DNA from: Sporichthyaceae bacterium
GTDB lineage: Bacteria; Actinomycetota; Actinomycetes; JAKEEW01
Assembly (NCBI GenBank): GCA_022616375.1
Contig: JAKEEW010000265.1
Coordinates: 1 to 55,424 of the forward strand
Length of the DNA: 55,424 nucleotides
Reading direction: 5' to 3'
Part shown: positions 1 to 26,866 of the stretch, one piece after another
Layout of the letters: the number at the start of each line of letters is the position of its first letter
Numbering within the stretch: position 1 is the first letter of the stretch
The notes under the pieces: generated by a model
What the model was told of the DNA's origin: nothing
Databases searched by the model: none
Seen by the model: the letters and a program-made list of their open reading frames with translations, nothing else
Made by a program: the position numbers and the translations under genes

Positions 1-2616
1 GGTAAGCGGGTCGACTACTCCGGCCGTTCGGTCATCGTGGTCGGTCCGCAGCTCAAGCTGCACCAGTGCGGGTTGCCCAAGCAGATGGCGCTCGAGCTGT
101 TCAAGCCGTTCGTGATGAAGCGGCTGGTCGACCTGAACCACGCGCAGAACATCAAGTCCGCGAAGCGGATGGTGGAGCGGGTCCGGCCGGTCGTGTGGGA
201 CGTGCTGGAAGAGGTCATCACCGAGCACCCGGTGCTGCTCAACCGGGCGCCGACGCTACACCGACTCGGCATCCAGGCGTTCGAGCCGCAGCTGATCGAG
301 GGTAAGGCGATCCAGATCCACCCGCTGGTCTGCACCGCGTTCAACGCAGACTTCGACGGTGACCAGATGGCCGTGCACCTGCCGCTGTCGGCCGAGGCTC
401 AGGCCGAGGCGCGGATCCTGATGCTGTCCTCGAACAACATCCTCAAGCCGGCGGACGGTCGCCCGGTCACCATGCCGACCCAGGACATGGTCATCGGGAT
501 CTTCTTCCTGACCTCGGACTCCGACAGCGCCGAGGAGCCGACCCGGGTGTTCGGCTCAGTCTCCGAAGCGATCATGGCGTTCGACGCCGGCGAGATGCAG
601 CTGCAGACTCCGATCCGGATCCGGCTGCGGGACATCGTTCCGCCGCGCGGCTGGACGGCGCCGGAGAGCTGGGAGCTCGGCGACCCGATCACGCTGACCA
701 CGACCCTCGGGCGGGCGCTGTTCAACGAGACGCTCCCGGCGGACTACCCCTACGTCAATGACGAGGTGGACAAGAAGCGGCTGTCCGCGATTGTCAACGA
801 CCTTGCAGAGCGGTACCCGAAGGTGCAGGTCGCGGCGACTCTGGACGCGCTCAAGGACGCCGGATTCCACTGGGCCACCCGGTCCGGGGTAACCATCTCG
901 ATCACCGACGTGATCCCGCCGCCGGAGAAGACCGGGATCCTGGACGCCTACGAGACCAAGGCCGATCGGGTGCAGGGCCAGTACGAGAAGGGCCTGATCA
1001 CCGACGAGGAGCGGCGCCAGGAGCTGATCCAGATCTGGACCCACGCGACGAATGAGGTCGCGCGGAAGATGGAGGACAACTTCCCGAAGGACAACCCCAT
1101 CTTCGTGATGATCAACTCCGGCGCCCGGGGTAACCCGATGCAGGTCCGGCAGCTGGCCGGTATGCGTGGCCTGGTGGCCAACCCGAAGGGTGAGATCATC
1201 CCGCGGCCGATCAAGGCCAACTTCCGCGAGGGCCTGTCCGTGCTGGAGTACTTCATCTCCACCCACGGTGCTCGTAAGGGTCTCGCGGACACCGCGCTAC
1301 GGACCGCCGACTCCGGCTATCTGACTCGCCGGCTGGTCGACGTGTCTCAGGATGTGATCATCCGCGAGGAGGACTGCGGCACCGACCGGGGCATCATGAT
1401 GCGGGTCGGCAACCTCGGCCACGACGGCAAGCAGCGCAAGGACGACAACGTCGACACCGGCGTAGTGGCCCGCACCCTGGCCGAGGACGTGGTGGTCGAC
1501 GGCGCGACCGTCGCGGTGGCGGGCACCGACCTGACCACCGTCGCGGTAGACGACATCAACGCGGCCGGAGTCGAGGAGGTCCGGGTTCGCAGCGTGCTCA
1601 CCTGCGAGAGCAAGACCGGCACCTGCGCGGCCTGCTACGGCCGGTCGCTGGCCACCGGCAAGCTGGTCGATGTCGGCGAGGCGGTCGGGATCATCGCGGC
1701 ACAGTCCATCGGTGAGCCCGGCACCCAGCTGACCATGCGTACCTTCCACACCGGTGGTGTCGCGGGTGAGGACATCACCCACGGCCTGCCGCGGGTGGTC
1801 GAGCTCTTCGAGGCTCGCCAGCCCAAGGGTGTAGCGCCGATCTCGGAGGTCGAGGGTCGGGTCCGGATCGAGGACACCGAGAAGACCCGTAAGGTCGTCG
1901 TGGTGCCGGATGACGGCACGGAGGAGAAGGCGTACCCAGTGTCCAAGCGGGTCCGGCTGCTCGTCCACGACGGTGACCACGTCGGCGTCGGTGACCAGCT
2001 GATCGCCGGCGCGGTCAACCCGCACGACGTGCTGCGGGTGCTGGGCCAGCGGGCCGTCCAGGTCCACCTGGTGGCCGAGGTCCAGCAGGTCTACCGGTCG
2101 CAGGGCGTGTCGATCCACGACAAGCACATCGAGATCATCATCCGGCAGATGCTGCGCCGGGTGACGGTCATCGAGTCCGGCGACGCTGAGCTGCTGCCCG
2201 GCGAGCTGGTCGAGCGGTCCCGGTTCGAGGAGGAGAACCGTCGGGTCGTGGCCGAGGGCGGCACCCCCGCCTCCGGCCGTCCGGTCCTGATGGGTATCAC
2301 CAAGGCCTCGCTGGCCACCGAGTCGTGGCTGTCCGCGGCCTCCTTCCAGGAGACCACCCGGGTGCTTACCGACGCGGCGATCAACGCCAAGTCGGACCCG
2401 CTGCTCGGCCTGAAGGAGAACGTGATCATCGGCAAGCTGATCCCGGCCGGGACCGGACTGCCGCGTTACCGCAACATCCGGGTCGAGCCGACCGAAGAGG
2501 CGAAGGCCACGATGTACACGATCACGCCGTACGACACCGACTACTCGGCCTTCGGTGCCGGGTCCGGTCAGGCGGTGCCGCTGGAGGACTACGACTTCGG
2601 TAGTTACCAGGGCTGA
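1..2616 (+). CDS. rpoC: RNA polymerase beta' subunit, 3' part (partial)
   Basis: Largest catalytic subunit of RNA polymerase. The reading frame is open from base 1 and codes 871 residues; the N-terminal third, including the first zinc finger, lies outside the window. Visible motifs are the metal-binding catalytic loop NADFDGDQM at bases 343-369, the trigger-loop region with [19 protein letters not shown] (bases 1267-1323), and the second zinc site (Cys in EEDCGT and in [13 protein letters not shown]). Actinobacterial beta' is about 1,300 residues, so about one third is missing. The gene ends TGA at 2614-2616, just before a strong hairpin. rpoB should lie immediately upstream. Confidence 0.98.
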
Positions 2617-2708: not shown

Positions 2709-2791
2709 CCCAAGATCGCTGTTTCCATGATTTCTCCACGCCCCGACCTGGGAGTTTGGGAGAAAGAAATCATGGAAACGGCGATCTTGGG
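2709..2791. repeat. Palindromic element, family A, copy 1
   Basis: Inverted repeat with 27 nt arms (2709-2735 and 2765-2791), perfect except for one G-U wobble pair, and a 29 nt loop. Measured from its CAAGATCG...CGATCTTG ends the element is 79 bp (2711-2789), exactly the length of the copy at 26755-26833. The reverse complement of this copy matches that one at about 58 of 79 positions without gaps. It fills the gap between the rpoC terminator and the next gene, and no protein is encoded in it. Confidence 0.85.
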
Positions 2792-2931: not shown

Positions 2932-3855
2932 ATGAGCGAGCAGCCAGGGTCTTCGGAGCCGGACGAGCGCGGCTCCGAGTCCGCGGCCGAGCCTGAGGCC
3001 AAGCCGGAGTGGAAGGGCCAGTTCGCCGCCTGGCGCGGGCAGTTAGGCCAAGCCGCCGAGCCGGTCGTGCGCCCGGTCGGCGAATCCGAGCCGACCGGCG
3101 AGGACGAGCCGGACCCGGACGAGCCGGAGCCTGGCTATGCGGTCCGCGAGCCCGAGCCGGATGAGGGGCCTGCCCAACACCAACCGGGCCGGACCGGGCC
3201 GGATCGGTCCAGCCAGCCGAGCTGGGGCCAACCGGCACCGCCACAGTGGGGACCCGCTGGCTGGAACCCGCCGGGTGCGCCGCCGCAGTCGGGCTGGAAT
3301 CCGCCCCCGGGACCGGGCCACTCCGGATGGGGCCAAGCCGGACCGCCCAACCAAGGCCAACCACCTTGGAGCCAGACCGGACCGCCGAACCAAGGCCAAC
3401 CACCCTGGGGTCAGCAACCGGCACCCGGTCAACCCGGCTGGGGACAACCCGGACCGTACGGCCAGCCCGGTTGGGGACCGCCCGCAGGGTACGGCCAACC
3501 TGGCTGGGGACCGGGCCAGCCGCCACCGCCCGGTTGGGGAGCCGGCCAGCCAGGTCCGCCGTGGGGGCGGGGCCCGTATCGGCCCGATTTCGTCCCGGGT
3601 TCGACCGAGCGGAGCGCGGTCTGGGCGATGGTGCTGGCGGCCGCGTCCTGGGTGCTGTTCTTCATCTGCCCGGGTGTGCTGGCGATCGCCGCGCTGTTCC
3701 TGGCCGCCCAGGCGGACAAGCGGATCAAGGACTCCGGCTACCAGTTGAAGGGCAGCGGGCTGGTCTCGGCCGCGCGGATCACGGCCTGGTCCAACCTGGC
3801 TGTGATCAGCTTGGTTGTGGTGATCTGGTTCGGGATCTTGGGCTCCAGCCGCTAG
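2932..3855 (+). CDS. Pro/Gly/Trp-rich membrane protein, DUF4190-like
   Basis: Codes 307 residues of unknown function. Residues 1-85 are acidic and charged. Residues 90-225 are low-complexity, built from repeats of the kind QPGWGQPG, with a 39 bp direct repeat in the DNA from 3341. The C-terminal 85 residues hold two hydrophobic segments (AVWAMVLAAASWVLFFI and NLAVISLVVVIWFGIL) around a short polar loop, the plan of DUF4190-type membrane proteins. The ATG at 2932 is preferred over an upstream in-frame ATG at 2794, which lies next to the palindrome. The protein probably sits in the cytoplasmic membrane with a long disordered N-terminal domain. It separates the rpoBC and str operons. Confidence 0.8.
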   Translation: MSEQPGSSEPDERGSESAAEPEAKPEWKGQFAAWRGQLGQAAEPVVRPVGESEPTGEDEPDPDEPEPGYAVREPEPDEGPAQHQPGRTGPDRSSQPSWGQPAPPQWGPAGWNPPGAPPQSGWNPPPGPGHSGWGQAGPPNQGQPPWSQTGPPNQGQPPWGQQPAPGQPGWGQPGPYGQPGWGPPAGYGQPGWGPGQPPPPGWGAGQPGPPWGRGPYRPDFVPGSTERSAVWAMVLAAASWVLFFICPGVLAIAALFLAAQADKRIKDSGYQLKGSGLVSAARITAWSNLAVISLVVVIWFGILGSSR

Positions 3856-25849: not shown

Positions 25850-26713
25850 ATGACGCTCGTTGATGAGCCCGCCGTCCCCGACACCGGGGACGGCGGGCTC
25901 ATTCGACTGCGCCTCGATCTGGCCTATGACGGCACCGACTTCGCCGGTTGGGCGCGCCAAGTGGGCGGGCTGCGCACGGTCCAGGCGGTGGTCGAGGACG
26001 CGCTCGCCACCGTGTTGCGGATCGACCAGGACGGAGCCGCGCTGGTGGTCGGCGGCCGGACCGATGCCGGAGTGCACGCCCGCGGCCAGGTGGCCCACGT
26101 AGACGTGCCTGCGGTCGCCTGGCGCCCGCTGGCCAGCTCACTCACCCGGCGGCTCAACGGGGTGCTGCCGGCCGACGTGCTGGTGCACCGGGTGGCGCCG
26201 GCGATGCCGGGCTTCGATGCCAGGTTCGCCGCGCTGTCCAGGCGGTATGCGTACCGGGTCAACGACAACCCGGCCGGGCCCGACCCGCTGCGCCGGCACG
26301 ACGTGCTCTGGTACAAGCGCGCGGTCGACGTCTCGCTGATGAACGAGGCGGCCGCCGATCTGATCGGCGAGCACGACTTCGCCGCGTACTGCCGGCGCCG
26401 GCTCGGCGCCTCTACGGTCCGCAGGCTGCTGTCGCTGTCCTGGGTGCGGGAGTCCAGCGGGCTGGCCGTCGCGCACGTGCTGGCCGACGGGTTCTGCCAC
26501 AACATGGTCCGTTCGCTGGTGGGTGCGCTGCTCGCGGTCGGCGACGGGCACCGCCCGGTGGAGTGGCCGGGAGCGGTGCTGGCGGCCGGGGTGCGCGAGC
26601 CTGGCGTGCAGGTGGTGGCACCGCACGGGCTGACCCTGGAGGAGATCCGCTACCCGGCCAACCCGGCCGAGCTGGCCGCCCGGGCCACCGAGACCCGCCG
26701 GCACCGCGGCTAG
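25850..26713 (+). CDS. truA: tRNA pseudouridine(38-40) synthase TruA
   Basis: 287 residues from ATG 25850; GTG 25844 is possible but lies only 1 nt from the AGGG site (25839-25842), against 7 nt for the ATG. The enzyme makes pseudouridine at positions 38-40 of tRNA. The catalytic Asp is Asp72 in GGRTDAGVHARGQ. LRLDLAYDGTDFAGWARQ and FCHNMVRSLVGALLAVG are typical. Bases 25863-25902, coding residues 5-18, form a 17 bp perfect hairpin. The neighbour after rplQ is conserved in actinobacteria. Confidence 0.94.
   Translation: MTLVDEPAVPDTGDGGLIRLRLDLAYDGTDFAGWARQVGGLRTVQAVVEDALATVLRIDQDGAALVVGGRTDAGVHARGQVAHVDVPAVAWRPLASSLTRRLNGVLPADVLVHRVAPAMPGFDARFAALSRRYAYRVNDNPAGPDPLRRHDVLWYKRAVDVSLMNEAAADLIGEHDFAAYCRRRLGASTVRRLLSLSWVRESSGLAVAHVLADGFCHNMVRSLVGALLAVGDGHRPVEWPGAVLAAGVREPGVQVVAPHGLTLEEIRYPANPAELAARATETRRHRG
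25863..25902 (+). terminator. 17 bp perfect hairpin inside the 5' end of truA
   Basis: Arms 25863-25879 and 25886-25902 are perfect complements with a 6 nt loop, 61 nt after the rplQ stop. There is no T tract. It looks like the rplQ operon terminator lying inside the truA reading frame. No good truA start exists downstream of it. Confidence 0.65.
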
Positions 26714-26754
26714 CGCACACCTCCCGCCTCCGCCCGCCTCGCAACCCGCATTTT

Positions 26755-26833
26755 CAAGATCGCCGTTTTCGTGATCGCATTGCCGAAAAAGCGCAGGTCG
26801 CGACCGAGAGGGATCATGAAAACGGCGATCTTG
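26755..26833. repeat. Palindromic element, family A, copy 2
   Basis: 79 bp element with 22 nt arms (26755-26776 and 26812-26833), perfect apart from one G-U wobble. It is the same length as, and about 73% identical to, the reverse complement of the element at 2711-2789, with a matching AGGTCG block at the same internal position. Confidence 0.85.
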
Positions 26834-26866
26834 GTCCGAGGCTTGGTCCGGGGCTTGGTGCGAGGT
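26831..26866 (+). repeat. Three tandem 12 bp units
   Basis: Units 26831-26842, 26843-26854 and 26855-26866 differ from each other at one to three positions. They begin at the last bases of the palindromic element and may derive from its end. Confidence 0.6.

Follow-up and report, generated by a model that had tools for sequence, protein, structure and literature searches.

The window analyzed here, a stretch of 55,424 nucleotides from a Sporichthyaceae bacterium, holds two intergenic palindromes that an initial annotation, made from the sequence alone, had grouped as one family. Are these chance hairpins or copies of a dispersed element and, in the latter case, is the element mobile, regulatory, or both? 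The basic description of the pair proved accurate. Both elements are 79 bp long with ends CAAGATCG...CGATCTTG, and an ungapped alignment of copy 1 with copy 2 in reverse complement has 58 matches in 79 positions (in 2000 shuffles the matches averaged 19.7 and never exceeded 33), with AGGTCG starting at position 41 in both copies. The long complementary arms comprise 25 consecutive pairs in copy 1 and 22 in copy 2, each with one wobble, and the count of one G.T per element was confirmed in the first 22 pairs of the outer arms. Predicted folding energies lie far beyond those of shuffled sequences (z -10.3 and -6.4), and all four occurrences of the arm motif in the window fall within the two copies, as against 0.00 expected from shuffles. 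Copy 1 sits just behind the stop codon of rpoC and copy 2 just behind that of truA. The tandem 12 bp triplication reported at the end of copy 2 is real (CTTGGTCCGAGG CTTGGTCCGGGG CTTGGTGCGAGG) and overlaps the element, its first unit beginning within the final four bases. The coordinates are collected in Table 1.

Table 1. Positions in the window of the two palindromic elements, their parts and the genes upstream of them
Feature	Position	Strand	Remarks
Copy 1, 81 bp unit	2710..2790	+	79 bp core 2711-2789 flanked by the conserved C and G; center CGACCTGGGA
Copy 1, left arm	2711..2732	+	CAAGATCGCTGTTTCCATGATT
Copy 1, right arm, inverted	2768..2789	-	
Copy 1, oriented center	2744..2753	+	CGACCTGGGA
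Copy 2, 81 bp unit	26754..26834	-	79 bp core 26755-26833; center CGACCTGCGC on the minus strand
Copy 2, left arm	26755..26776	+	
Copy 2, right arm, inverted	26812..26833	-	
Three tandem 12 bp units from the last four bases of copy 2	26830..26865	+	
rpoC, RNA polymerase beta' subunit, C-terminal part	1..2616	+	Upstream of copy 1; identified from its translation
truA, tRNA pseudouridine synthase	25850..26713	+	Upstream of copy 2

The source genome is a 4.64 Mb draft in 971 contigs (96.75% complete, 5.77% contamination). When the whole of it was searched with the arms, allowing up to 2 mismatches, there were 35 forward and 36 reverse matches as against none for a reversed-pattern control. These arms assemble into 34 complete elements plus two that are cut at contig ends, about 36 in all, and leave a single, weak orphan arm in the 4.64 Mb. 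The 34 complete copies are a lower bound, two contigs breaking at copies (G000:C210 at its end and G000:C509 at its start). The length is 79 bp in 33 of the 34 and 78 bp in the other, and the 34 are without exception intergenic by the gene calls (codirectional neighbors in 17 cases, convergent in 8, divergent in 7, and a contig edge in 2). This is the picture of many copies with conserved ends that the initial annotation had anticipated for a true family; neither of the outcomes that it had set against itself, a family of two copies only or a freely varying length, was found. Those neighboring genes that were examined are ordinary chromosomal ones (rpoC, truA, valS, groEL, ispG, hflX, pup ligase, thiolase and others). 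The edge bases are biased as well, C preceding 31 of the 34 copies and G following 25, which makes the unit more precisely 81 bp; copy 2 has the usual G at 26834 and a T instead of the usual C at 26754. Chance hairpins are thus refuted, and we give them practically no probability: 34 complete copies share one length, control patterns matched nothing, and shuffles lead one to expect none. A CTAG boundary to the source-genome copies was also considered and was dropped when its excess mostly vanished in comparison with element-free intergenic DNA (0.0048-0.0059 against 0.0032 per base).

What is conserved within the element? Among the 34 genomic copies there is hardly any variation in columns 4-9 and 71-76; columns 10 and 15 hold a pyrimidine (Y), and A predominates in column 17. 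The center (columns 34-42, CGACCTGCG) is conserved too, and gives the element a polarity. The information content of columns 26-33 and 48-53 runs from near zero to 0.6 bits, with column 54 standing apart as mostly A. The whole unit occurs as one piece in which conserved arms and an oriented center, CGACCTGCGG, flank about 14 near-random positions, and its length is constant despite them. The "conserved interior" of the initial annotation accordingly survives in part: it is correct for the ACCTG of the center and wrong for the positions beside the center, whose number is fixed while their bases are not.

Is the element peculiar to this genome? The exact two-arm pattern of the source-genome type was found in none of 39 relatives from the class, and it had no match in GTDB r220 contigs or IMG/VR, in which the source genome itself is perhaps absent; plasmid and phage records likewise held no match to the element. 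There is, however, a wider family with the common ends GATCGCYGTTT...AAACRGCGATC. With a gap of 35 to 65 this shared-end pattern matched 8 of 395 genomes of the class, with zero control matches. The Frankia genomes among these are G347 (115 copies), G099 (67), G242 (8), G131 (2), G110 (1) and G198 (1); outside Frankia there are 3 copies in G032 and, by the same pattern, 28 in the source genome. The Frankia type is 79 bp long (73 nt from GATC to GATC) and reaches 115 copies per genome, and the Catellatospora type is 67 bp long (61 nt from GATC to GATC), with 111 copies in one genome. When the named collection was scanned for the shared ends at least 114 stretches were recovered, mostly from Catellatospora and Frankia. 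The pattern allowed anything from 57 to 87 nt, yet among the matches listed 71 of 117 measure 61 nt and 32 of 117 measure 73 nt between the GATC sites, and 114 of 117 measure 60-62 or 72-74 nt; the same matches include single Pseudonocardiales genomes at 61 nt and one MAG at 62 nt. The family has, then, one length per lineage: 79 bp in the source genome and Frankia, and 67-68 bp in Catellatospora and some others. The motif ACCTGCGGT is common to the Catellatospora type and the center of the source-genome type.

A covariance model (E <= 0.001) matched 11 other genomes of the 395 in the class; these matches comprise several 79 bp elements and a few shorter palindromes of doubtful kinship. A single viral-contig match to the shared-end pattern, 87 nt long, looks like chance and was discarded. 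Two further observations concern 61-nt palindromes. In G397, a Pseudonocardiales MAG, the six 61-nt elements listed come close to perfect palindromes, a change in one arm being matched by one in the other; in this they differ from the Frankia type. In another actinobacterium, G314, a 61 bp palindrome (L083, 1501-1561) has unrelated arms and the same center, CCCGACCTGCGGTTTC.

To follow individual sites between species, flank pieces of 110 bp served as the query for finding where 34 Frankia elements have their orthologous places, which were then read. Comparison of G099 with G347 showed the element in both at 24 of 34 checked sites and its absence at 10. In G131 only 2 of 23 checked sites are filled and 21 are empty, with similar flank identity, and in G110 none of 10 is filled; the flanks at the compared sites are mostly 77-98% identical. 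Copy number and site occupancy thus turn over between species, and the element spreads or is lost faster than coding DNA diverges. The initial annotation had looked to occupied and empty sites between strains for support, and both kinds occur at orthologous places between these Frankia species. A clean empty site with a target duplication was not resolved at any of them, the intergenic DNA being too diverged in every case examined, and no target duplication was seen around the copies.

Such turnover raises the possibility of a purely selfish, non-autonomous repeat of the MITE or ERIC kind without host function, whose active copies must keep their ends and length and whose old ones are quickly deleted. 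The range of 0 to 115 copies among congeneric Frankia genomes agrees with this, as do the many orthologous places that are empty despite similar flanks (see G131 and G110 above) and the existence of sub-families that have common interiors at non-orthologous loci. So does a Frankia subset (L153, L154, L148 and L141) in which the palindrome extends into longer flanks, CTAGTGCCG...CGGCACTAG, for a total of about 150-165 bp, like the terminal inverted repeats of a larger unit. Other observations fit a selfish repeat less well. No target duplication or clean empty site was seen; neither the source genome nor two Frankia genomes yielded a related autonomous element or a Y1 transposase, and a pattern search of the draft genome for an autonomous element with the same ends found no widely spaced arm pairs among the loci read. 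Moreover, the interiors of paralogues within a genome differ far more than those of orthologues, from which it follows that most copies are old. Finally, transposition competence alone does not explain why, at fixed orthologous sites, conserved columns change slowly and indels are rare (see below). We therefore consider a purely selfish repeat possible but doubtful.

Some features of chromosomal distribution may be mentioned here. In G099 two elements 2.2 kb apart (L126, 3022 and 5240) bound a segment whose order is inverted relative to two congeners lacking both elements (L166, L185); recombination between the palindromes is a possible cause. Regular chromosomal spacing of the copies in this genome was rejected, since the gaps look Poisson (CV 1.09). 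G099 is complete (8.8 Mb), and its copies are more closely packed in the megabase that follows the contig start near dnaA (15 as against 4-8 per Mb); one copy is just downstream of dnaA (L124, 1790).

Are the copies constrained where they stand? In 20 orthologous Frankia pairs, which had to be recognizable as orthologues for the comparison, the rate of substitution per site was 0.041 for conserved columns, as against 0.134 for variable columns and 0.18 for flanks; the first of these rates is lowered in the outer columns because the copies were picked by exact outer arms, the inner columns being unaffected. The inner conserved columns were accordingly counted alone, as they are not in the search pattern and so have no pattern bias: in 24 Frankia pairs they gave 0.051 as against 0.188 in variable columns (p 3e-12). 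Indels tell the same story. The 20 pairs have 5 one-base indels in 1577 element sites as against 34 events (308 gap bases) in 2261 flank sites, so that indels are about five times rarer in the element than in its flanks (Fisher p 2e-4). For Catellatospora orthologues the rates were 0.109 in inner conserved columns, 0.349 in variable columns and 0.40 in intergenic flanks, the last being nearly saturated, and length was kept in most pairs. Because these comparisons use orthologues, the constraint concerns the copy at its own site as well as its capacity to spread. Individual copies are under purifying selection in place, as measured in Frankia and Catellatospora (the nearest relatives compared for the source genome are at class level), and each copy probably has a job. 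Of "mobile or regulatory", the alternatives offered by the initial annotation, both words are needed: there is dispersal and loss between species, yet there is purifying selection on the copies in place.

If the copies have a job, is it done as RNA or as DNA? One proposal would be a bidirectional terminator or mRNA 3'-end hairpin, with the palindrome folding in RNA from either strand. Actinobacterial intrinsic or hairpin terminators do resemble the element in being long stable hairpins behind stop codons, as both window copies are, and the RNA hairpins predicted for it are very stable. The outer arms also covary. In the source genome this concerns columns 3/77 (z 4.8) and 15/65 (z 3.5), and in Catellatospora columns 15-17 (z 4-5); at orthologous sites, moreover, some changes affect both arms. 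Furthermore, by counts based on genes called with a simple codon-model script, and with some copies of Frankia sp. AgB1.9 counted twice in the Frankia set, convergent sites are over-represented in the source genome (8 as against 1.3 expected) and in Frankia (27 as against 8.3). Terminators, however, are sited at 3' ends and avoid divergent gaps, whereas by the same counts divergent sites make up 7 of 32 copies in the source genome and 25 of 58 in Catellatospora, where they lie at divergent promoters at twice expectation; the bias in context is thus opposite between lineages, convergent-rich in the source genome and Frankia and divergent-rich in Catellatospora. Nor is there a U-tract, and a terminator has no need of a fixed total length. 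The loop side is unstructured and not short, and in Frankia there is no covariation between the inner symmetric modules (columns 30/50 are paired at 0.32 as against 0.50 expected). The polarity of the center is unrelated to transcription, being the same as that of codirectional genes in 9 cases and opposite in 8. A terminator or 3'-end hairpin is in our view unlikely; the RNA hairpin as the selected object was set aside on the inner modules and the want of strand polarity, though the outer arms covary, and is kept as a rival only.

The covariation of the arms nevertheless calls for an explanation. Taken with the finding that 10-nt flanks pair better than shuffled pairs, it is better explained by a hairpin or cruciform, or by templating between the arms, than by simple double-strand binding. 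Arm-to-arm templated repair of the palindrome would yield the same covariation without selection on the hairpin. The lack of covariation in the inner modules is as expected for a dyad-symmetric double-strand site. The element may therefore be seen as a candidate site that acts at the level of DNA, with dyad symmetry and a fixed geometry, and that perhaps passes through a cruciform or hairpin phase.

The triplication beside copy 2 is not isolated. Several copies have tandem units of about 9-18 bp directly beside them, and in many cases the first unit begins within the final bases of the element (besides the window, L051 ~1866-1926, L065 ~2959-3019, L036 3088-3147 and L063 3087-3110). Compared with control intergenic DNA, tandem repeats are more frequent beside copies in the source genome (4 of 68 as against 0 of 79, p 0.04) and in Catellatospora (13 of 141 as against 4 of 226, p 0.0015), with no enrichment in Frankia. 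Such an excess would fit replication slippage at the palindrome.

The element is, in sum, a dispersed palindromic intergenic repeat with a lineage-fixed length and constraint in place, and the window has no Rfam match at the gathering score. It is probably best read as a dispersed DNA element of the ERIC kind, the copies of which are maintained as putative protein-bound sites with a fixed geometry. In its full form, this reading makes the copies a small non-coding intergenic element of fixed length, belonging to a wider actinobacterial family, that would be a DNA site for a putative symmetric-multimer protein and would be dispersed non-autonomously; we rate the chances of this full statement as about even. 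The element would work as DNA and not as strand-specific RNA, with an oriented center between two recognition arms that are inverted and kept a set distance apart. Its reader would most likely be a putative sequence-specific protein that binds as a symmetric multimer, for which substitutions of single spacer bases would be tolerable and indels would not. Dispersal to new intergenic sites would be non-autonomous, via a putative enzyme or a recombination route. The distance between the arm centers is 62 bp for the 79 bp type and 50-51 bp for the 67-68 bp type, and this difference, close to one helical turn, fits such a complex but does not prove it. As a more tentative extension, the copies might serve throughout the genome as sites of fixed geometry for a putative DNA-binding protein of actinobacteria, one with an action on chromosome structure or cruciform DNA. 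Its recognition of the arms (GATCGCYGTTT) would then be old and common to the lineages, and each lineage would have changed the spacing a single time, by roughly a turn of the helix.

Repeats of this small palindromic kind tend to be classed as inert or selfish. The present family, whose length does not vary, whose interior is close to random and whose copies are constrained in place, is found again in separate actinobacterial lineages, each with a single length. If the constraint reflects function, Frankia, Catellatospora and their relatives should have a putative protein with some 35-115 sites to read in each genome, for which the fixed 79 and 67 bp geometries offer a ready probe.

How does the element compare with known families? 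We found no published description of it in the open literature, although subscription journals may hold one. REP elements and BIMEs moved by a REP-associated tyrosine transposase (RAYT) are, like it, palindromic, intergenic and present in many copies. They are, however, 20-40 bp long and have a GTAG or CGTC tag at their ends, as against 79 bp and no tag here, and the Y1 transposase domain PF01797 was absent from the source genome (G000), G099 and G347 in a search that was positive in five control genomes including E. coli. As far as tested, a REP/RAYT system was rejected on these three grounds, and we consider it very improbable. MITEs are likewise short, with inverted ends and an occupancy that varies between species; the actinobacterial element differs from them in its constraint at fixed sites, and it may also differ in having no target duplication and no autonomous partner, neither of which was seen around the copies or in the pattern search of the draft genome, respectively.

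The nearest in kind are the ERIC/RU units. ERIC (enterobacterial repetitive intergenic consensus, RU-1), YPAL/RU-2 and RU-3 are small, dispersed, non-coding intergenic imperfect palindromes of set length (127, about 168 and 103 bp, respectively) that lack a transposase and form stable stem-loops (PMC2759123). The actinobacterial element has the same set length (79 bp in 33 of 34 copies), imperfect palindromy, high copy number, non-coding nature and intergenic siting (34 of 34). As with ERIC-type units, both occupied and empty orthologous sites were found (24 and 10, respectively, between G099 and G347, and 2 and 21 in G131), here with breakpoints that are not clean. ERIC-type units have TA ends and TA target duplications, whereas the source-genome element has C...G edges, no TA pair in the flank table and no visible duplication, and the ERIC/RU units belong to other taxa and have other sequences. 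Unlike ERIC, the actinobacterial element combines about 14 near-random inner positions with a constant length, has ends that are common to families of different length, and is under measured constraint in place.
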